In this document: piece by piece, positions 43,670 through 53,764 of the stretch
How positions within the stretch are numbered: position 1 is the stretch's first letter
How the letters are laid out: each line of letters opens with the position of its first letter
Source of the DNA: Chloroflexota bacterium
GTDB taxonomy: Bacteria > Chloroflexota > Anaerolineae > J102
NCBI GenBank assembly: GCA_013152585.1
Contig: JAADGC010000157.1
Location: forward strand, 1-53,764
DNA length: 53,764 nt
Direction: 5' to 3'
Translations under genes and position numbers: made by a program
Notes under the pieces: model-generated
Database searches by the model: none
The model's input: the letters and a program-made list of their open reading frames with translations, nothing else
Told to the model about the DNA's origin: nothing

Positions 43670-45187
43670 ATGAATGACCAAATCTCACCCATAGTCGAGT
43701 TGCGAGACATTAGCAAACGATTCCCTGGCGTCCTGGCCCTCGATAACGTCAGCATGAACGTGCTACCGGGCGAAATTCATGCAGTCGTGGGAGAGAATGG
43801 CGCTGGTAAATCAACCTTGATGAACATCCTCGCTGGCGAACTGCAACCCGACTCCGGCGACATCGTTTTTCAGGGAAATAGGTGTGCTATTCCCAATCCT
43901 TATGTGTCACAGCAAATGGGGATTAGCGTCGTCTACCAGGAACTGGCACTCTGCCCTAATCTATCGATTGCCGAGAACGTGTCATTGAGCAGCGCCTCGA
44001 CATCGAATGCGCTTTCATTTGTAAAAAGGCGCAGGTTTGCGGTTAAGGCTCGAGAAGTGCTCTCCCAGTTGGGAATAACCGACATAGACCCCAATCGCCC
44101 CATCAGCAAACTCACGGTAGCGGAGCAACAGCTTGTCGAAATAGCCAAAGCCATTTCAGGGCAAGTCAAACTGCTCATTTTAGATGAACCAAACTCCGCC
44201 CTCACGCGAGAAGAGACCGACAACCTCTTTGCAATCTTGCGACAACTCCGCGACTCGGGAGTGGGTATGATTTATGTTTCGCACCGGTTGGAAGAAGCCC
44301 TTAGCTTGTGCGATAGAATCACCGTCTTACGCGACGGCAAATGGATCGACACGGTAGCTGCAGCAAATGTGACGGTTGACGATTTAATCGCCATGATGGT
44401 GGGCCGGGCTGTTGATGACCTCTATCAACGAGCTACCGATGCTACCACTCACACCCAGACCATCTTCGAACTTCATGATTTAAGGTCTGGCAATGCACTA
44501 AAAGGGATGTCGTTTGCTTTGAAAGCCGGTGAAATATTAGGAGTTGCCGGCTTACCCGGGGCGGGGAAAGACGAACTTGTAGAATGCTGTTTTGGCCTCA
44601 GATCCTATACCGGAAAAATTGATATACAGGGAAATGCGGTGTCAATCCATTCACCATCAGAAGCAATTCAACTGGGGTTGGCTTTTATACCAGCAGACCG
44701 CAGAGCTTCGGGGGCACTGCTTGTCATGGATGTTAAGGGAAACATTGTAGCGGCAAACTTGCCATCGGTCAGCAAGTATGGGCTCATGAAACAACCTGCC
44801 ATACGTGCGACCAGCCAGAAATATGTAAAAGAACTCGATATTCGCATCGCCAGCTTGAGCCAGAAAATGGGCACTCTTAGCGGGGGCAACCAGCAAAAGG
44901 TAATTCTGGCTCGCGGACTTGCTACCAACCCGTCGGTGCTCATCCTTCACGAACCCACTCGCGGCATCGATGTCGGGGCCAAGGCCGAGATTTATAGGAT
45001 ACTCCAGGATTTGGCCGCAGAGGGGGTCGGCGTCCTCATCGTGTCATCTGAGTTGCCTGAGTTAATCGGCCAATGCGATCGTATCCTGGTGATGCATGAC
45101 GGTCGAATTACAGGACAGTTTACTCGTGACGAAGCGGCCGAAGAACCTATCCTGGCTTGCGCCATGGGCCAGACAACTCATTTCTAG
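43670..45187 (+). CDS. rbsA: Sugar ABC transporter ATP-binding protein (RbsA-like)
   Basis: 505 residues with two fused nucleotide-binding domains. Domain 1: Walker A GENGAGKST (41-49), signature region LTVAEQQLVEIAKA and Walker B LILDEPNSALT. Domain 2: Walker A degenerate (GLPGAGKDE, 295-302), as is usual in RbsA, but a good LSGGNQQKV signature (403-411). Its Walker B reads LILHEPT (424-430), with His in place of the usual Asp. ATP hydrolysis is therefore expected mainly at one composite site. Confidence 0.93.
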   Translation: MNDQISPIVELRDISKRFPGVLALDNVSMNVLPGEIHAVVGENGAGKSTLMNILAGELQPDSGDIVFQGNRCAIPNPYVSQQMGISVVYQELALCPNLSIAENVSLSSASTSNALSFVKRRRFAVKAREVLSQLGITDIDPNRPISKLTVAEQQLVEIAKAISGQVKLLILDEPNSALTREETDNLFAILRQLRDSGVGMIYVSHRLEEALSLCDRITVLRDGKWIDTVAAANVTVDDLIAMMVGRAVDDLYQRATDATTHTQTIFELHDLRSGNALKGMSFALKAGEILGVAGLPGAGKDELVECCFGLRSYTGKIDIQGNAVSIHSPSEAIQLGLAFIPADRRASGALLVMDVKGNIVAANLPSVSKYGLMKQPAIRATSQKYVKELDIRIASLSQKMGTLSGGNQQKVILARGLATNPSVLILHEPTRGIDVGAKAEIYRILQDLAAEGVGVLIVSSELPELIGQCDRILVMHDGRITGQFTRDEAAEEPILACAMGQTTHF

Positions 45188-45231
45188 CCCGGTGCGGCCT
45201 CACACCTCAAGCATATTGCTCATTACCTATC

Positions 45232-46161
45232 ATGACAAACCCAATCATAACCGTTGTTGGAAGCTTTGCCGTTGGCATGACCATGCGAACCGTTCGCATG
45301 CCTATATTCGGAGAAACGCTGGTTGGATCGGACTTCGACATGGGTCCTGGGGGAAAAGGTTCCAATCAAGCGGTGGGAACGGCCAGACTTGGCGCTTCTT
45401 CCTATTTTGCAGGAATCATAGGCGACGACAAATTAGGAGAGATCGCCGTTGACCTTTATGCAGAAGAGGGAGTAGATACAACCTATCTGCAAAGGACAGA
45501 CAGGCTGCCTACCGGCGTTGGCATCATCATCCTCAATGAAGCCGGTGAGAATGGCATTATTCTCGATATGGCCGCTAATGAGCTCATGGATGCCACATTC
45601 GTCGATAATGTTGAAAGTCAGATCAAGAAGAGTGACGTTGTGATGTCTGTGTTAGAATTACCTGTTGAGGCTGCCGCTCGAGCTATGGAGCTGGGGCGCA
45701 AGCATGGCGTGCATACAATTCTGAATCCTGCGCCGGCGACGGCCTTAACAGATGACATTCTCAGAAATGTGGACTATCTGACCCCCAATGAAACTGAATT
45801 GCGAATTCTTTTAGATCTCCCGCCGGACGATCCGACACCCACCGCAATCCTGGCCCAAAGATTACGAGACCGTGGTGTTGGCAATCTCATCGTCACGATG
45901 GGCGCCAAAGGCTCACTCTTGTATACACGCGACGGCATGACGGCCGTATCCGGAGTAACTGTCGATGTCGTCGATACAACAGGCGCCGGCGATGCGTTCA
46001 ACTCAGGACTCGCCATTGCCCTGGCCGAAGGGATGGGGCTCGTCGAAGCCGTGCGTTTTGCGAATTGTGCGGGCGCTTTGGCGTGCACGAAGCTGGGTGT
46101 CATTCCCTCTCTTGCTGACCGGGCGGCCGTACAGGTATTTTTTGAACGTCACTACAATTAA
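45232..46161 (+). CDS. rbsK: Ribokinase (PfkB family)
   Basis: 309-residue sugar kinase that phosphorylates ribose or a similar sugar with ATP. The N-terminal GGKGSNQAV motif is at 40-48 and the C-terminal DTTGAGDAF at 248-256 with catalytic base Asp254. NPAPAT and TPNETEL are typical of ribokinase. The ATG at 45232 is chosen because the beta-strand IITVVGSF starts the domain. It is followed by RbsD, so ribose is the likeliest substrate. Confidence 0.9.
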   Translation: MTNPIITVVGSFAVGMTMRTVRMPIFGETLVGSDFDMGPGGKGSNQAVGTARLGASSYFAGIIGDDKLGEIAVDLYAEEGVDTTYLQRTDRLPTGVGIIILNEAGENGIILDMAANELMDATFVDNVESQIKKSDVVMSVLELPVEAAARAMELGRKHGVHTILNPAPATALTDDILRNVDYLTPNETELRILLDLPPDDPTPTAILAQRLRDRGVGNLIVTMGAKGSLLYTRDGMTAVSGVTVDVVDTTGAGDAFNSGLAIALAEGMGLVEAVRFANCAGALACTKLGVIPSLADRAAVQVFFERHYN

Positions 46162-46205
46162 CCACTCTTCTATCCCTGCCTGGATATCAAGGAGAAAAGT
46201 ACGCA

Positions 46206-46694
46206 ATGAAAAGCGGAAAGTTACTTAACGCTGAACTGAGCCATGCGATTGCATCCATGGGGCATACCGATTTAATGATCGTGTGCGACGCTGGTTTCCC
46301 GATTCCCAGCAGCGCTTGGCGAATCGACTTGGCGATCATGCCAGATGTCCCGGACCTGGAAACCGTGCTCACTGCGGTGAGCTGCGCCTTTATCGCCGAA
46401 AAAGTCTCATTCGCTACCGAGATGGCCGAGAATAACCCGCCTTTGCTCGAAAAGGTCAAACTCATTTTCCCTGACAGCGATTACCTGCCAATACCGCACG
46501 AACAAATCCTCAACGAAATGGCGGCCCGAGCCAAGGTCATTGTGCGAACGGGTGCATTTGATCCCTGGGGGAACATTCTGCTCTATTCCGGCGTCGACGC
46601 ACCTGTATGGTTCTCGAAGCCAGGGCTGAAGGTGCCGGATATCTACCGGCAACGCGTCGAACAGATGCAAAACAGCGCTGATGCTGCTCGCTAA
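46206..46694 (+). CDS. rbsD: D-ribose pyranase
   Basis: Converts pyranose to furanose forms of ribose so that ribokinase can use it. 162 residues; the catalytic His20 lies in ASMGHTD, and the C-terminal RTGAFDPWGNILLYSGV is the family signature. RbsD-fold fucose mutarotases are related, but the neighbouring ribokinase favours ribose. An AAGGAG precedes the ATG. Confidence 0.93.
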   Translation: MKSGKLLNAELSHAIASMGHTDLMIVCDAGFPIPSSAWRIDLAIMPDVPDLETVLTAVSCAFIAEKVSFATEMAENNPPLLEKVKLIFPDSDYLPIPHEQILNEMAARAKVIVRTGAFDPWGNILLYSGVDAPVWFSKPGLKVPDIYRQRVEQMQNSADAAR

Positions 46695-46717
46695 CCAACA
46701 ACACTCCCAAGAAGATT

Positions 46718-47929
46718 ATGGCAACATTCACCCATACCATTCAAGCAACAACAACGCCCCGCCAACGCGTTTTGACAGCGCTTCAACATCAGCAGCCTGA
46801 TCGCCAGCCGGTAGATTTTCTGGCCACATCTGAGATCTGGCGCCAACTTCAAGAATACTTTGACATCGATGAAAGGAAGCCCTCCGACGAAGACTTCTTC
46901 GACCCCAACTGGGAGGCGATTCTTCAGCGATTAGAAGTTGATTGCCGGGTCATCTCCTACGACCAATTCTGCAAACCACCCGAGTCGGTCATCTTACCCG
47001 GCGCGAAGGTGAACTGGTGGGATGCGCTGAGCCGCTCAACGCCTAATCGTATGTTTCGGCAGAAGCTTCCTGATGGTACCTGGCGTGATATTTGGGGGCA
47101 CGTCATTGGCATTGTCCAGAATCAATCTGGATCCTATGAAGAATTTTCAGAATGGCCCTTAGGTCGGGCAGAATCGGTCGCTGATTTGAAGAATCATCCC
47201 TGGCCAGCTCCTGATTGGTGGGATTTCAGTCCCCTACCAGATCTGTTAGCTCAGTACGACGCCATGGGCGATTTCCATCTACGATTTCGCATCGGCTCGG
47301 TGTTCGAGATCGCCTGGCAGTTACGCGGGATGCAGGAGTTCTTGATGGACCTTGTTAGAAGCCCAGAGATTCCATTGTATATTTTAGACCGTCTCACAGA
47401 GGTTCATGTTGAGAATACAAAGCGGGTGCTGGAGCTGGCGGGGGATCGACTGGACATGGTCTATCTCTATGATGACGTGGCCACCCAAAATTCGCTGATG
47501 ATCTCGCAGCGGATGTATCGTCAATTTGTCCGGCCCTTTCACGAGAGAATCATTGCCGTGGCCAAATCCTATGGCATTCCTGTCATGTACCACTGTGACG
47601 GCGCCCTCTACCCCCTGATCCCAGACTTCATCGACCTGGGCATCGATCTCCTGAATCCGGTGCAAGCGGACGCCAATGGTATGGAACCTGCGAGACTCAA
47701 AGCAGAATTCGGCGAGCAACTTAGTTTCCACGGCGGCATCGACATCATCAAGACCTTACCGCGCGGGACAGTGGATGATGTCCGTCATGAAGTGAATGAA
47801 CGGATTCGTGTGCTGGGAAAAAATGGCGGCTACATCTTATGCAGCTCCCATCACATACAATCAGATACACCTCTGATCAACGTGCTTAGCATGTACGATA
47901 TAGAATCTCGTTATGTCCACCAACACTAG
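46718..47929 (+). CDS. UroD-like (uroporphyrinogen decarboxylase superfamily) protein
   Basis: 403 residues. The fold markers RVLTALQHQQPDRQPVDF, YLYDDVATQNSLMIS, YHCDGALYPLIPDFIDLGIDLLNPVQ, FHGGIDIIKTLP and the CSSHHIQSDTP ending belong to the UroD/MtaA-CmuA superfamily. It is not a haem enzyme by context: no haem genes are near and the N-terminal substrate loop of true UroD is missing. Relatives include corrinoid-dependent methyltransferases, where a His-x-Cys site binds zinc; here HCDG is present. Placed last in the ribose-type operon, it may act on a methylated or otherwise modified sugar (hypothesis). Confidence 0.8.
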   Translation: MATFTHTIQATTTPRQRVLTALQHQQPDRQPVDFLATSEIWRQLQEYFDIDERKPSDEDFFDPNWEAILQRLEVDCRVISYDQFCKPPESVILPGAKVNWWDALSRSTPNRMFRQKLPDGTWRDIWGHVIGIVQNQSGSYEEFSEWPLGRAESVADLKNHPWPAPDWWDFSPLPDLLAQYDAMGDFHLRFRIGSVFEIAWQLRGMQEFLMDLVRSPEIPLYILDRLTEVHVENTKRVLELAGDRLDMVYLYDDVATQNSLMISQRMYRQFVRPFHERIIAVAKSYGIPVMYHCDGALYPLIPDFIDLGIDLLNPVQADANGMEPARLKAEFGEQLSFHGGIDIIKTLPRGTVDDVRHEVNERIRVLGKNGGYILCSSHHIQSDTPLINVLSMYDIESRYVHQH

Positions 47930-48209
47930 ATGGCTTGAAGCCGTGCCCGCCGAATCAATTCGGCGGGTGCGCTCCCTTTAGCCCCGAATTTGATCGCCGC
48001 ACCGGCGATGACCGACATTGGCCGCACATTGAAAATGTGCGTCTCAAGGGGCAAAATCCCCGCAGGGATTTGATTTCGGGTAATTCGTGTCAAAAAATGC
48101 CTTGCTAAGCCGTGTGCCGCCGGGGGACAAGCAGGGGGGGAGCCAGATTTGACACGAGAAACCATATTGATTTAACATATAAGCATCCTCTTATGTATTT
48201 AATCCCATC
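47930..48209. other. Hairpin-rich gap between the two operons
   Basis: Holds three perfect hairpins: CCCGCCGAAT/ATTCGGCGGG (47946-47967, directly after the UroD-like gene and perhaps its terminator), CGCACATT/AATGTGCG (48023-48041) and AAATCCC/GGGATTT (48054-48071). An inverted pair TCGTGTCAAA/TTTGACACGA spans 48085-48157, and the metal-regulator promoter follows. Confidence 0.6.
48149..48200 (+). promoter_or_regulatory. Promoter and operator 1 of the metal-sensor gene
   Basis: TTGACA, an 18-base spacer and TAACAT. Overlapping the -10 and start is the imperfect inverted repeat ACATATAAG...CTTATGTAT (48175-48198), like SmtB/CzrA-family operators. Autorepression is inferred. Confidence 0.55.
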
Positions 48210-48569
48210 ATGATCGATTCCCGAACCATCTGCGCCGCCGACCACACGGACGAAACCCTGGCTCGCGCTGCCGAGGACTATCTGCTCGATGGCATCATCG
48301 CCACCCACGTCGCCGATCTGTTCAAGGCCCTCTCTGACCCCACCCGCGTGCGCGTCATCAGTCTGTTGGCGCACACCGAATTATGCGTGGGGGACTTATC
48401 CCTGGTGATGGGCATGAGCCAACCCGCCATCTCACACCAGCTCCGGGTGTTACGCAATCTGCGCATCGTCACGGCGCGCCGGGAAGGACGCCACGTTTTC
48501 TACACCCTCAGCGATGAACACATTCATGATCTGTTCCAGCAGGGATTGGCCCATGTAAAGCATGAATGA
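48210..48569 (+). CDS. ArsR/SmtB-family metal-sensing repressor
   Basis: 119-residue winged-helix repressor (ALSDPTRVRVISLL, MGMSQPAISHQLRVLRNLRIV, EGRHVFYTL). Both metal sites known in the family appear complete. The alpha3N-type ligands Cys8, His12, Cys59 and Asp62 match SmtB Cys14/His18/Cys61/Asp64 in spacing. The alpha5 ligands Asp102, His104, His115 and His118 match the CzrA pattern. Zinc (or cobalt/cadmium) is therefore the likely inducer. It lies before a P1B metal ATPase, and operator-like sites stand before both genes. Confidence 0.9.
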   Translation: MIDSRTICAADHTDETLARAAEDYLLDGIIATHVADLFKALSDPTRVRVISLLAHTELCVGDLSLVMGMSQPAISHQLRVLRNLRIVTARREGRHVFYTLSDEHIHDLFQQGLAHVKHE

Positions 48570-48639
48570 CCTTTAGCCCATGCTCCCTTCCTCTCCCTGA
48601 CCTCTGGCTGGCACGAAATCTCTTTTTTTTAGCCAAAAC

Positions 48640-48664
48640 CATAAACGTTTGCTTATGTATCAAT
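48640..48664 (+). promoter_or_regulatory. Operator 2 candidate before the metal ATPase gene
   Basis: CATAAAC...GCTTATGTATCAAT shares the nine bases CTTATGTAT with operator 1 and has a similar left arm. It suggests that the sensor also controls the ATPase gene from a separate promoter in the 126-nt gap. Confidence 0.5.
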
Positions 48665-48695
48665 ATCCATTCAGCCCCCCAAACAATGATCCACC

Positions 48696-51113
48696 ATGAC
48701 CAAACTCCAACTCGACCTCTCCTTCCTTCTCCCCGACATGGACGCGGGCGACCGCTGCGTGAATATGCTCACCCAGCAACTGGCCAGCACCCGCGGCCTT
48801 TCGGAAGCGCACATCGTCCGTGAAGACGGCACGGCCAAGCTCTGCCTGCACTACGATCCCAACCTGCTCTCGCTGGCCAAGATCGAGCGCATGGCCGAGC
48901 AGGCAGGGGCTGAAATCAGCGAACGCTACCGGCACAAAGCCATCCCCCTGGAAAACATCCTCGTCGCCGACGCCGCCATCAGCCTGACCCGGGTGCTGGA
49001 GAAAATGCCGGGCATGCTGCATGCCAACGTCAACTATGCCGCCGGCGTCGCTTTCGTGGCATACGATAGCGAGCGCCTGTCACGCCGACAGATCGAAGAA
49101 GCTATCCGCAGCCAGGGTTACCGCCCTCTGCCCGAGGCAGGGCAGCGGCCGGAGCTGGCAGAGACCTCCGAGGAAGCGGAGGCGACGGAGGAGCACGATC
49201 ACGGCAGTGCCCCCGCGTTTCTGCCGCACTGGATGCAGGAACGCTGGACCCTGATCCTGGTGGGATTGGCGGGCTTCTTCCTGCTCATCGGCTGGTTGGG
49301 AGAGACTTTTTTCGCATTACCTGCAAACGTAGCCCTGGTTTTCTATCTACTCGCTTATCTGGCCGGTGGCTACGACATTGCCACCCATGCCGTCCCCGGC
49401 CTGCTCAAAGGCCGCTTTGATACCGATGTGCTGATGCTGGCCGCGGCCTTGGGCGCAGCGATCCTGGGCGAGTGGCCGGAAGGCGCGTTCCTGCTCTTCC
49501 TGTTCAGTCTGGGCCATGCCGGCGAGCATTATGCCCTCGACCGGGCGCGCAACGCCGTCAATGCCCTGGGCGAGCTCATGCCCAAAACGGCACGGGTCAA
49601 GCGGGATGGCCGGATCACAGAACTACCGGTAGGGCGAGTGCAGATCGGCGACGTGGTGGTGGTGCGGCCAGGTGACCGGATGCCGGTGGATGGGCGGGTG
49701 GTGGCTGGCGCCAGCGCCGTGGATCAAAGCCCCATCACCGGCGAAAGCGCGCCGGTGGCCAAAAGGACGGGCGACGAAGTCTTCGCCGGCACCATCAATC
49801 AGGAAGCGGCGCTGGATGTCGAGGTGACCAAACTGGCCAAAGACAACACCCTCAGCCGGGTGATGCAGATGGTGGCCGAAGCCCAGAGCCAACAAAGTCC
49901 CACCCAGCGTTTCACCGAGCGCTTCACCGCCCGCTTTGTTCCGACCGTGTTGCTTCTGGTGCTGGCAGTCATCGTCATCCCGCCCCTGTTGGGTTGGATG
50001 GCGCTCGCAGACAGTTTCTATCGGGGCATGTTGCTTTTAGTCGCCGCTTCACCCTGTGCCCTGGCCATCGGCACACCGGCGGCCGTGCTTACAGGCATTG
50101 CCCAGGCGGCCCGTAATGGCGTCCTGATCAAAGGAGGCGTGCATTTGGAGAATCTGGGCATGGTCCGGGTGATGGCGTTCGACAAGACCGGCACCCTCAC
50201 CCAGGGCCGCTTCCAGCTAACCGATCTCATCCCCCTCAACGGCGCCGGCGATGACGACTTGTTGCGCGTGGCCGCAGCCGTGGAGCAGCAATCCAACCAC
50301 CCCCTGGCCCTGGCTGTGGTGAAGGCCGCGCAAAAGAAAAACCTGGATCTCCCCCCCTCCCATGGCCTGGAGAACCTGGCCGGACGCGGCGTTAGCAGTA
50401 AGATCAACGGCAAGCCTGTACTCATCGGTTCGGTCAAACTCTTCCAGGAAAAGGATGGGCATATTCAGAATGAGCAAGTGGAAGATATTATCGCCCGGCT
50501 GGAGGCGGCCGGCAAAACCACCATGGCAGTCAGTTTTGATGGGGTTTTCCTGGGCATTCTGGCCCTGGCCGATGCACCCCGCCCCGGCGTCCGCCAAACC
50601 ATGCAGCAACTCCTGAAGCTGGGCATCAAGCGCCTGGTTATGTTGACCGGCGACAACGAGCGGGTGGCGCAAGAAATCGGGCGGAAAGTCGGTGTCACCG
50701 ATGTGCGGGCAAAGTTGATGCCCGAGAACAAATTGGATGCCATCAAGCAGTTACAGCAGGATTATGGGACGGTGGCCATGACAGGCGATGGCGTGAATGA
50801 TGCGCCAGCCCTGGCCACCGCCACCGTAGGCATTGCCATGGGCGCGGCTGGTACGGCCGTGGCTTTGGAGACTGCGGATGTGGCTCTGATGGCCGACGAC
50901 TTGGGCAAGCTGCCTTTCGCCGTGGGCTTGAGCCGGGCCAGCCGTCGCATCATCATGCAGAACCTGGCCATTTCCCTGGGCGTGATCGGCATCCTGATCG
51001 TAACATCGGTGGCCGGTTTGATCGCCCTGAGTGGCGCCGTCGTCCTCCACGAGGGCAGCACCATTGTCGTGGTGATGAATGCGTTGCGACTCTTACGCTA
51101 TGATTATTCTTAA
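48696..51113 (+). CDS. P1B-type heavy-metal-translocating ATPase (SPC type)
   Basis: 805-residue metal exporter. Two N-terminal ferredoxin-like domains (about 4-75 and 90-142) resemble HMA domains but lack CxxC. A short His/Asp/Glu-rich stretch (EEHDHG) follows, then the pump core: TGES (348-351), DKTGT (496-500, phosphorylated Asp496) and GDGVND. The transport motif in the sixth helix is SPC (452-454), and the last helices carry HEGST (785-789). SPC plus HEG[G/S]T defines the P1B-4 group, which exports Co, Zn, Cd or Fe in different bacteria. The specific metal is open; the SmtB/CzrA-like sensor favours Zn, Co or Cd. Confidence 0.92.
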   Translation: MTKLQLDLSFLLPDMDAGDRCVNMLTQQLASTRGLSEAHIVREDGTAKLCLHYDPNLLSLAKIERMAEQAGAEISERYRHKAIPLENILVADAAISLTRVLEKMPGMLHANVNYAAGVAFVAYDSERLSRRQIEEAIRSQGYRPLPEAGQRPELAETSEEAEATEEHDHGSAPAFLPHWMQERWTLILVGLAGFFLLIGWLGETFFALPANVALVFYLLAYLAGGYDIATHAVPGLLKGRFDTDVLMLAAALGAAILGEWPEGAFLLFLFSLGHAGEHYALDRARNAVNALGELMPKTARVKRDGRITELPVGRVQIGDVVVVRPGDRMPVDGRVVAGASAVDQSPITGESAPVAKRTGDEVFAGTINQEAALDVEVTKLAKDNTLSRVMQMVAEAQSQQSPTQRFTERFTARFVPTVLLLVLAVIVIPPLLGWMALADSFYRGMLLLVAASPCALAIGTPAAVLTGIAQAARNGVLIKGGVHLENLGMVRVMAFDKTGTLTQGRFQLTDLIPLNGAGDDDLLRVAAAVEQQSNHPLALAVVKAAQKKNLDLPPSHGLENLAGRGVSSKINGKPVLIGSVKLFQEKDGHIQNEQVEDIIARLEAAGKTTMAVSFDGVFLGILALADAPRPGVRQTMQQLLKLGIKRLVMLTGDNERVAQEIGRKVGVTDVRAKLMPENKLDAIKQLQQDYGTVAMTGDGVNDAPALATATVGIAMGAAGTAVALETADVALMADDLGKLPFAVGLSRASRRIIMQNLAISLGVIGILIVTSVAGLIALSGAVVLHEGSTIVVVMNALRLLRYDYS

Positions 51114-51155
51114 CTGGAGTCTGACGAAAATCAAACTCACGGCTTGGCAACACAT

Positions 51156-51233
51156 TTTTTGACACGAATTACCCGAATGTGACGCATTATTTGTCGACTT
51201 TTTCGTGAAATTCGTAAAAATTCGTGTCAAAAA
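51156..51233. repeat. 15-bp inverted repeat after the metal ATPase gene
   Basis: TTTTTGACACGAATT and AATTCGTGTCAAAAA are perfect inverted copies 48 bases apart. The core TTTGACACGA is the same as in the inverted pair at 48085-48157, in opposite arm order, so the pairs bracket the sensor and ATPase genes. Confidence 0.65.
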
Positions 51234-51275
51234 GAAAAAATGCCAAAGTTCAGTTCTTAATCAGGAGACAAAAAC

Positions 51276-51992
51276 ATGAAACGACGATGGTTGGCCAGAT
51301 TGACGTTAGGCGCCGCCCTTGGCATTCTCTGGCGGCGAGAGCGAGCCAGCGGAGAGCTTAGCCGGTGGCTGAAACACACGATTATCCGCGGCGCCCAAAC
51401 CGCCCACTTGGTGCGGGGTCGGGAACGCTCTTCCTGGGTGCGCCGCTTTTACGTTTTCATGGCCCCAGCCTACGACCTGGCGTTTCTCAGTATGCCCGGA
51501 TACCGACACTCAGCCCGCGACCTCCTCGATCAACTGGAGGCCGGGCCCGAAGATGTGGTGTTGGATGTGGGCTGCGGCACGGGTTTGCTGACCTTGCCCC
51601 TGGCTGAACGCGCCAAAAAAGTCGTGGGCCTGGATCTGAGCCCGGAGATGCTGGCCAGACTCTCCACCAAAGCGGCCCGGCGTGGGCTAAGCATCGATCT
51701 GCACCAGGGGAGCGTCCTGGATTTGCCCTTTGACGACGATACATTCACCCTTGTCACCACCTCCTTCATGCTCCTCTACCTGACACTGGAAGAAAAAGAG
51801 CGCGCCCTGGCGGAAATCCACCGCGTCCTCGCCCCTGGTGGACGCCTGGGATGCCTCAGCAGCCTGGGCGAGATCGCCGATATCTTCCTGACCGGCGAGG
51901 AATGGGAAAAGCTGCTGCTGGGAGCGGGCTTCAGTGATGTCCAGATAAAAGACAGCGACGACGTTTTCCGCCTGGTGAGGGCTCAAAAATAA
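51276..51992 (+). CDS. Class I SAM-dependent methyltransferase
   Basis: 238 residues. A basic, partly hydrophobic N-terminus is followed by a Rossmann methyltransferase domain: motif I DVGCGTG (97-103), the acidic end of strand 2 in VVGLDLSPEM, motif II-like GSVLDLPFDDDTF and the post-motif HRVLAPGGRLG. It resembles UbiE/PMT-type small-molecule or lipid methyltransferases; the substrate is unknown. AGGAG precedes the ATG. The stop overlaps the next small ORF (TAATG). Confidence 0.88.
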   Translation: MKRRWLARLTLGAALGILWRRERASGELSRWLKHTIIRGAQTAHLVRGRERSSWVRRFYVFMAPAYDLAFLSMPGYRHSARDLLDQLEAGPEDVVLDVGCGTGLLTLPLAERAKKVVGLDLSPEMLARLSTKAARRGLSIDLHQGSVLDLPFDDDTFTLVTTSFMLLYLTLEEKERALAEIHRVLAPGGRLGCLSSLGEIADIFLTGEEWEKLLLGAGFSDVQIKDSDDVFRLVRAQK

Positions 51993-52117
51993 TGGACAAC
52001 CAACGCAATCTCGATCGCTTTGGCAAGAAGTCGGATCTGGTCACCGGGCAGGATGAGCTCTCCCTGCTGCGGAGCCAGTACCGCCTCTCTCGGCTGGAAA
52101 AGGAAGGACCAACATGA
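51992..52117 (+). CDS. Small coupled ORF (41 aa) between two methyltransferase genes
   Basis: Begins in a TAATG overlap with the methyltransferase stop and ends in an ATGA overlap with the ICMT-like gene, so it is tightly coupled on both sides. The peptide is hydrophilic and helical in character (NQRNLDRFGKKSDL, DELSLLRSQYRLSRLEKEG), without a signal or membrane segment. No family is recognised. The double overlap makes translation likely; otherwise a short insertion kept in frame would have to explain it. Confidence 0.5.
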   Translation: MDNQRNLDRFGKKSDLVTGQDELSLLRSQYRLSRLEKEGPT

Positions 52118-52740
52118 GTACATTTTCCCCTCGCTTCTTTACACTGCCAGCAATTGGCAACCCCACCTGGATTTACCCCGGTTTGGGTATCGCGCTTGGC
52201 GTTTGGGTAATGTTGGGCATCTACGTCTTTGCGGAGATCAGAAAAACCTACGATAGAAATGGGGTATTCACGAGTAAACTGCTGAACCTTTGGTTTGTCA
52301 TATGGGGATTCTACCACCTGGCGGTCATTCTCTCGTCGTTATATGCTGTCTGGTCGATACCGATTAACCGAACGTTAGCATTCGCAGGCGGTCTGGTTTT
52401 GATTGCGCTTGGGGCGATTACACTGGCAACCGGTATGATTGAGTTCCGCTCCCTGCAGAGGAGTTGCGGACAGGATACCTCACAATTGATCACCACCGGC
52501 ATATATCGGTGGAGCAGAAACCCGCAGTTTATGGGGTGTCTTTTTTATCTTTTAGGCCTATCCCTGATCGGCCGATCAGGGTTCGCTTTTCTACTGACGG
52601 GAGCGGCCTCCCTGGTCATTTATTGGTACACCGTCCGTCTGGCAGAGCCCTACCTGGAGCGATTGTATGGCGATGAATATCGTTCGTACAAAGCGAGAAC
52701 GGCAAGGTGGGTAGGAATGCCGAAGAAGGAAGGGACATGA
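52114..52740 (+). CDS. ICMT/PEMT-like membrane methyltransferase
   Basis: 208 residues with about five transmembrane helices. The C-terminal block GIYRWSRNPQFMG, then EPYLERLYGDEYRSYKAR, is the SAM-binding signature of the isoprenylcysteine carboxyl methyltransferase/phospholipid methyltransferase family. Bacterial members act on unknown lipid-like or small substrates. The start overlaps the 41-residue ORF and the stop overlaps the next gene (ATGA both sides). Confidence 0.85.
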   Translation: MSTFSPRFFTLPAIGNPTWIYPGLGIALGVWVMLGIYVFAEIRKTYDRNGVFTSKLLNLWFVIWGFYHLAVILSSLYAVWSIPINRTLAFAGGLVLIALGAITLATGMIEFRSLQRSCGQDTSQLITTGIYRWSRNPQFMGCLFYLLGLSLIGRSGFAFLLTGAASLVIYWYTVRLAEPYLERLYGDEYRSYKARTARWVGMPKKEGT

Positions 52741-53489
52741 AGCACAAGACTTCCCCCAAAGATGGAAAGAAAAAGGGGGCGCCACGGTTTGGACTTAGCT
52801 TGATCGCCGGCGCCCTGGGCGGGTTTATCGCCGGGCGTAGCGTATCCGCGCCGCGCCGAATGCCCCACCTGGAGGTCTGGCAGGGGATGATGGCCGAGCA
52901 AAGGGGTGAGCTGGGGGCTGCCATGCTCGGCGCCCGCGTCCAGGCTCGCTACGACGAGCACTTTGCCCAACGACCACGCTTTCGCAGCCGTGCTCTGCGC
53001 TTCCATTTCGAGAGCAACATCCTCCCCACCCTGGCTCTCTATCAAGTCCTGCAAGAGGACGAAGACGGCACCTCCCCGGAAGAGGTGTTGGCGGAGGTGG
53101 CCCGCCTCCTGGAAGTGGCAATGCGTGATCGCCTGCTCCGGCGCTCGCAGTTATTTGCGCACATCCCCCGCCCCTTTGCGGCGTTCCGCCTGAGTGCGCG
53201 CTGGTTTATGCGCTTACTTTTCCCATCCAGTGGTTGGGATATGGAAGTGGTGGAGGACAACGATCATTGCTTTGCATTCAACGTGCGGCGTTGTTTTTAC
53301 CTGGATGTACTGAGCACTTACGGCCCCCCCGAGTTGACCAAACTCTTTTGCGGATTGGATGATCTCGCGTACGAGGCCTTGCCGCCGGCCATCCGCTGGC
53401 AGCGCACCAAGACGCTGGGCCGGGGCGATGACTGTTGCGATTTCCGCTGGTGTCGGACAGCACCAGAGAGGGGAGAAGAAAAAGCATGA
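52737..53489 (+). CDS. L-2-amino-thiazoline-4-carboxylic acid hydrolase-like protein
   Basis: 250 residues. A basic N-terminus with a glycine-rich hydrophobic stretch (LSLIAGALGGFIAG) is followed by a domain ending in YGPPELTKLFCGLDDLAYEAL, IRWQRTKTLGRGDDCCDFRW. That ending matches the ATC-hydrolase family (Pfam 14196), named for ring opening of 2-amino-thiazoline-4-carboxylate in the Pseudomonas route to cysteine. Cys residues of the conserved FC..D and CDFR motifs are present. Most family members have no tested activity. The start overlaps the ICMT-like gene. Confidence 0.72.
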   Translation: MKHKTSPKDGKKKGAPRFGLSLIAGALGGFIAGRSVSAPRRMPHLEVWQGMMAEQRGELGAAMLGARVQARYDEHFAQRPRFRSRALRFHFESNILPTLALYQVLQEDEDGTSPEEVLAEVARLLEVAMRDRLLRRSQLFAHIPRPFAAFRLSARWFMRLLFPSSGWDMEVVEDNDHCFAFNVRRCFYLDVLSTYGPPELTKLFCGLDDLAYEALPPAIRWQRTKTLGRGDDCCDFRWCRTAPERGEEKA

Positions 53490-53764
53490 TGAACCTATTG
53501 CGCCCCCTCTTGTCGTGGAGCTTGCGGCGAGGACTGAAACAGAGGTTTTCCTGGCAGGAACAGCAGCAGATCATGCAAGAAGTCTGGCGTATCGACAATG
53601 AATTGGCCCAAAATCTCCCCGATGAACCCAATCTGGGGGCACGTCTGATGGTGCGTACGGCAGCGCTCACCGTCAGTGTTTACCGTGCTTTATGTAACGT
53701 TGGCATGGAGGAGGATAAGGCGCGGGAGATGACGGCGCGAATCACCTGGTCAATCTATGATAAA
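53486..53764 (+). CDS. Partial CDS, possibly a second ATC-hydrolase-like protein (cut by window end)
   Basis: Starts in an ATGA overlap with the preceding gene and is open for 93 codons to the window edge. The visible part (VYRALCNVGMEEDKAREMTARITWSIYDK) reads like the N-terminal helical region of ATC-hydrolase-family proteins, where an LYxxL.xxGxxxxxA pattern precedes the core domain. A paralogue of the previous protein is therefore suspected, but the diagnostic C-terminus lies outside the window. Confidence 0.55.
   Translation, partial: MMNLLRPLLSWSLRRGLKQRFSWQEQQQIMQEVWRIDNELAQNLPDEPNLGARLMVRTAALTVSVYRALCNVGMEEDKAREMTARITWSIYDK

Follow-up and report, generated by a model that had tools for sequence, protein, structure and literature searches.

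The window analysed here is the entire contig JAADGC010000157.1 (53,764 nucleotides, nt) of a Chloroflexota bacterium (assembly GCA_013152585.1; genome of 3.8 Mb in 251 contigs). Its right end carries a row of genes that probably forms an efflux operon which responds to metal and includes an accessory module of methyltransferases and Cys proteins. Read from 48210 to 53764 (Table 1), the row encodes an ArsR/SmtB sensor, a P1B ATPase, a UbiE-like S-adenosylmethionine (SAM) methyltransferase (MT), a 41 amino acid (aa) open reading frame (ORF41), a PEMT/ICMT-like membrane methyltransferase (PEMT), an ATC_hydrolase-like protein (ATC1) and a second such protein (ATC2), which is cut where the row runs into the contig end. 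An earlier reading made without database searches (the sequence-only reading) had an SmtB/CzrA-like sensor and an SPC-type pump leading the row, and every gene it named was found in its place and in the family given. Judged by gene content and order, the row is real and conserved, an accessory module belonging to a metal efflux operon. The gene composition, the conservation of the neighbourhood and the fold class of an ATC2 relative are established at the level of sequence.

The sequence-only reading had proposed a search for conserved neighbourhoods, and such neighbourhoods exist; genes in the loci of relatives were called as simple longest open reading frames. In a genome of the same genus (G001, contig locus L233) an MT 78% identical to that of the window starts 15 bp past the stop codon of the same pump. 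A genome from another family (G075; f23) has an SPC pump, an ICMT gene (PF04140), PEMT (75%), a PCYCGC protein, MT (66%), a second MT and a CPC pump; the PCYCGC-motif gene (PF13798) is L232 4845–5204. G005, from the same family as the window, shows the order sensor (83%), ICMT-like gene, pump (75%), DUF4386 and an ATC2-type protein. G039 displays ArsR, CDF, MBL-fold, a UbiE-like MT, a MacB-like permease, ATC1 (approximately 45%), two ICMT genes and a HlyD/CusB-like gene; in gene content this matches the set of the window, built around another pump. Close orthologues of MT (at least 66% identity) are found in 3 of 90 genomes, its own included, and every one is beside an SPC pump. The one other PEMT orthologue (75%) among the 90 genomes, that of G075, is also beside an SPC pump. 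The sequence-only reading had held that downstream genes present in relatives without sensor and pump would speak against the association; MT and PEMT were not found so, whereas relatives of ATC1 often have no pump. In 40 regions fetched by sensor orthologues (the best-scoring places plus a few below), an ICMT-like gene lies within 4 kb of 5 of 21 SPC pumps, all five in a single genus of the same family, and of 0 of 14 other P-type pumps. Thus the accessory genes are frequent but not obligatory.

The tight packing described by the sequence-only reading holds for the five downstream genes, which overlap or abut, but not for their join to the sensor and pump. A gap of 162 bp separates the pump from MT, and about 145 bp of it is a dispersed repeat with 44 matches in its own genome, itself included. 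The repeat core is self-complementary (TTTTTGACACGAATT/AATTCGTGTCAAAAA), with a folding z of −3.3. A search of positions 45000–53764 gave no Rfam match, the repeat included, and no + strand terminator-like site is listed in 51114–51275. The repeat is absent from this place in G001, where the MT start region, TCAGGAG, is the same as in the window. On the simplest reading, the repeat would have entered between the pump stop codon and the MT ribosome-binding site in the window lineage. The 15 bp junction in G001 points to one unit as the ancestral state. A 40 nt part of the repeat is also found inverted upstream of arsR (48075–48114), and more repeat sequence occupies about 47950–48075. The 40 nt inverted repeats flanking the ArsR-pump pair are real; a repeat-flanked mobile cassette joined to MT by chance was however rejected as an explanation, because the G001 junction is short and carries no repeat.

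The sensor scores 100 bits against NF033788 (HTH_metalloreg; cut-off 55) and its closest PDB sequence match is SmtB (1.5e-28). In the translation the last helix reads D-E-H-x10-H-xx-H (D102, H104, H115, H118), an alpha5-type motif; D-x-H-x10-H-xx-H/E was taken to be the rule for the alpha5 metal site. The sequence ATAAGCATCCTCTTATGTAT precedes arsR and ATAAACGTTTGCTTATGTAT precedes the pump gene, giving two operator-like sites in the window compared with a mean of 0.03 in shuffled sequences; there is no third in the window at three or fewer mismatches. No useful strict palindrome came out of a scripted search of the operator regions, and operator likeness was judged by eye. By eye, relatives show similar sites ahead of arsR and ahead of the pump or, where there is one, ahead of the ICMT gene. 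The best PDB match of the pump is 7qbz (3.5e-172), presumably the P1B-4 pump sCoaT. Both the SPC (SPCAL) and HEGxT (HEGST) motifs are found, which in the text available from PMC8880997 define the P1B-4 type (SPC in M4, HEGxT in M6). The window shares architecture and motifs with systems of SmtB/CzrA sensors and P1B-4 pumps (7qbz), but adds the accessory genes, and the HMA-like domain of its pump (residues 97–142) is degenerate and does not contain CxxC.

ATC1 has the conserved residues C186, C205, D208 and C234. The 92 visible residues of ATC2 give no Pfam match, but are 60% identical to the N-terminus of the full-length PF14196 protein of G005, which bears out the probable second ATC-like protein of the sequence-only reading. 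The G005 protein matches PF14196 with 1.4e-16, and its gene has a 100% match in JAADII010000070.1 (L171). A profile built from the ATC2 sequences of G005, G105 and G182 gives 98.8 bits with the window ATC2 and, in the GTDB collection of genomes, located 12 loci, 13 with G182; the loci L171, L173 and L206 of this group (group A) hold the profile-seeding genes. The signature C-x(14-22)-C-xx-D-x(18-30)-C is found in all 13 members of this subclade, in the L201 protein, in 7 ATC1-type proteins and in 32 other PF14196 members. An extra Cys five residues before the second motif Cys is present in 13/13 of the subclade and in 0/7 ATC1-type and 0/32 other proteins. The window ATC1 does not have the extra Cys and ATC2 ends before that position; thus what ties the window to the subclade is the 60% N-terminal identity of ATC2.

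The model of the G005 ATC2 (pLDDT 93.5) has a Foldseek match to H-NOX 6bdd (1.1e-4). The VIA comparison gives Bet3 1wc9 (Z 9.1, root mean square deviation (rmsd) 3.8, 144 residues aligned), 5kbi (Z 8.3, rmsd 3.7, 140 aligned) and the MopR/DmpR/PoxR sensor domains (Z 7.8–8.3); a VIA Z of 7–8 can reflect a common arrangement, but here entries from one superfamily fill the list. That other folds do not appear among the Foldseek and VIA matches is not counted as evidence. This agrees with the kinship by sequence of PF14196 with V4R and HNOB, with a common three-Cys cluster, given in the passages seen of PMC5847659. For the window ATC1 a weaker model was obtained (pLDDT 75, best E-value 1.6e-3), with the same structural neighbours; the ATC2 profile, run against PDB sequences, gave 0 matches. 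As modelled, ATC-like proteins have a V4R/H-NOX/Bet3-like fold, shown as a fold class for the ATC2 relative, and they are probably not thiazoline hydrolases. The thiol or thiazoline ligand pathway offered by the sequence-only reading is not supported, given this predicted fold, and nothing found supports a hydrolase activity. The L-ATC hydrolase AtcB is alike in that ATC1 matches PF14196 above cut-off, but differs in gene context and in the subclade-specific extra Cys. The V4R domains of DmpR, MopR and PoxR share the fold and three conserved Cys plus an acid; DmpR binds zinc through Cys151, Glu172, Cys177 and Cys185 (PMC7264223, sections available). They differ from the ATC-like proteins in the presumed ligand order, which is C-C-D-C in the latter, and in that ATC-like proteins have no AAA+ or DNA-binding domain. 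PF14196 is in print for archaeal signalling, and no published report of a link between the ATC family and metal was found in the open literature searched.

The subclade loci come from Chloroflexota, Clostridiales, Acidobacteria-type metagenome-assembled genomes, Alphaproteobacteria, Nevskia and Solirubrobacteraceae. A P1B, CDF, RND or multicopper oxidase gene lies within 8 kb in 9 of the 13 chromosomal subclade loci compared with 0 of 32 other PF14196 loci (Fisher 8e-7), the latter (group C) all from Chloroflexota, several from one genus, and being the loci fetched, with five further weak places left out (G084, G129, G039:C494, G210, G042:C86). For P1B genes by themselves the counts are 7/13 and 0/32 (Fisher 4e-5); approximately 0.17 are expected in the flanks of 13 loci (50 over cut-off, 14 genomes, about 56 Mb). 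The Nevskia locus reads DUF2933-ICMT-ATC-P1B, the alphaproteobacterial locus RND-OEP-P1B-ATC and the G105 locus YHS-ATC-P1B-cupredoxin. Four loci have none of these metal genes within 8 kb: L172, where nothing metal-like was seen, L175, with a MerR gene nearby and a contig-cut YHS-HMBD protein at 8.8 kb, L177, with ICMT nearby, and L182, with an ArsP-YHS permease next door. ATC2-like genes are found in 1/369 genomes of the class of the Nevskia match and in 1/385 of the class of the alphaproteobacterial match, in each case just the genome from which the search started.

On plasmids, 6 of 7 ATC-like places fetched are near metal genes, the matches H35 and H36 having been left out of the count. 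In Croceicoccus marinus E4A9 the ATC gene starts 5 bp past a heavy-metal ATPase gene, and in Martelella it overlaps a CDF gene; the seventh locus, from Sulfitobacter dubius, has DUF2933-ICMT 5.4 kb off. The plasmid proteins are divergent. Three that were scanned gave no Pfam match, the signature as written is not matched at the seven loci, and the full-length proteins (L184, L185, L186, L187, L189) read HC..SWC-xx-D..VCDMCW. L183–L189 are copper-resistance islands of marine Alphaproteobacteria in which genes for an APC permease and for Lgt repeatedly accompany the ATC-like genes. ATC1 gave 4 weak partial matches on plasmids. G269 (L201) was rejected as a pump locus of this kind: its ATPase is of P2 type (Cation_ATPase_N and _C) and its ATC protein has no extra Cys. 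A first count of 16/21 still had L201 in group A; regrouped without it, the count is the 9/13 chromosomal and 6/7 plasmid loci given above. At L201 (4668–8995) the P2-type cation ATPase gene is directly followed by a UbiE-like methyltransferase gene and then an ATC1-type gene, so that ATC1 may go with other cation pumps too. ATC1-type genes at L043–L045 (G046, G106, G079) have no metal efflux genes nearby, and the neighbour of the gene at L045 is an ABC transporter whose binding protein is of PBP_like_2 type.

PEMT scores 53.7 bits against PF04191 (gathering score 25), and falls below the NCBIfam equivalog NF040696 (protein-S-isoprenylcysteine O-methyltransferase; 28.4 vs 160 bits). The NCBIfam matches listed for MT are all below curated cut-offs, with arsenite methyltransferases among these, far below. 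MT has no plasmid match at 1e-20. Plasmid ICMT homologues adjoin CDF, cation transporter or Nramp genes in 5/5 inspected (H46, H61, H62, H63, H67, of 30 listed; 80 and 159 records in all). The sequence-only reading held that metal efflux operons do not normally carry such genes, which is wrong for the ICMT-like gene. The excerpts seen of PMC7563307, PMC12029693 and PMC3056050 describe ICMT-like czcN/NccN in metal clusters, and those of PMC8478169 describe copA clusters with DUF2933 and ICMT in Alteromonas. By superfamily and context, CzcN/NccN of the Cupriavidus czc/ncc clusters is likewise an ICMT-like membrane methyltransferase of about 200 aa; the efflux there is of RND type, whereas the window has a P1B-4 pump, and the descriptions consulted include no ATC-like protein. 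The MerR-copA-cupredoxin-DUF2933-ICMT clusters of Alteromonas, as described in the same excerpts, also combine a P1B pump and an ICMT-like gene, but with a copper pump and MerR sensor where the window has an SmtB-type sensor, an SPC pump, a UbiE-like MT and two ATC-like genes. The Nevskia locus adds an ATC-like gene to the DUF2933-ICMT-P1B pattern of the copper clusters. The ICMT part is a new case of a published pattern, and the ATC/V4R part is the new element.

In the proposed mechanism metal would bind the SmtB/CzrA-type repressor, as its alpha5 ligand motif suggests, and free the two operators, switching on the P1B-4 pump to export a divalent metal of the Co, Zn, Cd, Fe or Ni class. Ancestrally, read-through from the pump would have reached the downstream genes, the evidence for MT being the short junction in G001; in the window genome the repeat would later have separated the two parts. 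The ATC-like proteins may bind metal or a metal-linked ligand through Cys-Cys-Asp-Cys, buffering or sensing it, and the target of methylation by the PEMT/ICMT-like and UbiE-like enzymes may be a membrane-linked thiol, carboxyl, quinone or lipid, one that carries metal or would be harmed by it. Several observations weigh against an operon with such a module. No operator-like site lies ahead of MT in the window scan, and ICMT and ATC2 are missing from many orthologous sensor-pump loci in the sensor-found regions. ATC1-type genes have no metal gene nearby at 5 of 7 loci, one of them on a 3.3 kb contig. All 32 PF14196 members that have no metal neighbours also possess the Cys-Cys-Asp-Cys motif, so the motif alone does not tie the fold to metal resistance, and the plasmid loci and loci within genera are not independent. 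The first of these, with the repeat-filled gap and the pumpless majority of ATC1 relatives, would suit two unrelated units brought together by chance, one being the sensor and pump and the other a methyltransferase/ATC operon with a different role. This is improbable given the pump-MT junction in G001, the PEMT and MT orthologues in the pump cluster of another family (G075) and the ATC2 gene adjoining the pump in G005.

In an adaptation of envelope or lipids to metal, phospholipids or quinones would be methylated by the PEMT-like and UbiE-like enzymes, with the ATC-like proteins as carriers of a hydrophobic substrate. This reading draws on the phospholipid methyltransferase family name of PF04191, on the resemblance in fold to palmitate-bound TRAPPC3/Bet3 and to phenol-binding MopR/DmpR, and on the binding of lipids and aromatics by Bet3 and V4R folds; it is rather unlikely, as no lipid or quinone pathway genes are in the clusters seen and the extra Cys of the metal-linked subclade fits metal better. 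That hydrolases and methyltransferases make or modify a thiol or thiazoline metal ligand, or methylate a metalloid, is highly improbable: the family name, the arsenite methyltransferase matches and one ATC2 relative adjoining an ArsP-YHS permease stand against sub-cut-off MT matches throughout those listed, no other ligand biosynthesis genes seen and an ATC fold of a ligand/metal-binding type. Beyond the metal-responsive operon itself, the ATC hydrolases with the extra Cys could, more tentatively, be an unrecognised metal-binding family of V4R/H-NOX fold that serves P1B pumps in several phyla as a chaperone, buffer or sensor and cooperates with ICMT-type membrane methyltransferases in a methylation-dependent step of metal resistance. 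ICMT-like genes in copper and czc clusters have no settled role, and a recurring ATC partner whose conserved motif resembles a metal site gives a testable handle on it. The ATC-like link would also put right the name thiazoline hydrolase, a misleading label from automatic annotation in metal-resistance islands.

Table 1. Features of the gene row and its upstream region; positions are those of the window.
Feature	Position	Strand	Length	Description
Promoter-like sequence	48149–48178	+		TTGACA-18-TAACAT; directly 5′ of first operator-like site; similar sequence before arsR in relatives
First operator-like site	48179–48198	+		ATAAGCATCCTCTTATGTAT
ArsR/SmtB-family metal sensor	48210–48569	+	119 aa	PF01022 1.3e-15
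Second operator-like site	48641–48660	+		ATAAACGTTTGCTTATGTAT; ahead of pump
P1B-4-type (SPC) heavy-metal ATPase	48696–51113	+	805 aa	PF00122/PF00702; TIGR01525 1e-179
Dispersed repeat	51114–51259		~145 bp	Follows pump stop codon, precedes MT ribosome-binding site
UbiE-like SAM methyltransferase (MT)	51276–51992	+	238 aa	Methyltransf_25 1.7e-28, also Methyltransf_11/UbiE
ORF41	51992–52117	+	41 aa	Overlaps both neighbours
PEMT/ICMT-like membrane methyltransferase	52114–52740	+	208 aa	PF04191 3.2e-14
ATC1, ATC_hydrolase-like protein	52737–53489	+	250 aa	PF14196 1.1e-23
ATC2, second ATC_hydrolase-like protein	53489–53764	+	92 aa	N-terminal part only (contig end)

Within the downstream genes, the MT stop and ORF41 start overlap at 51992, ORF41 and PEMT at 52114, and PEMT and ATC1 at 52737; ATC1 abuts ATC2 at 53489. 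ORF41 has no family assignment in the Pfam and NCBIfam scans. Its sequence is similar to the C-terminal tail of the G039 methyltransferase, with 43% identity over 37 aa.

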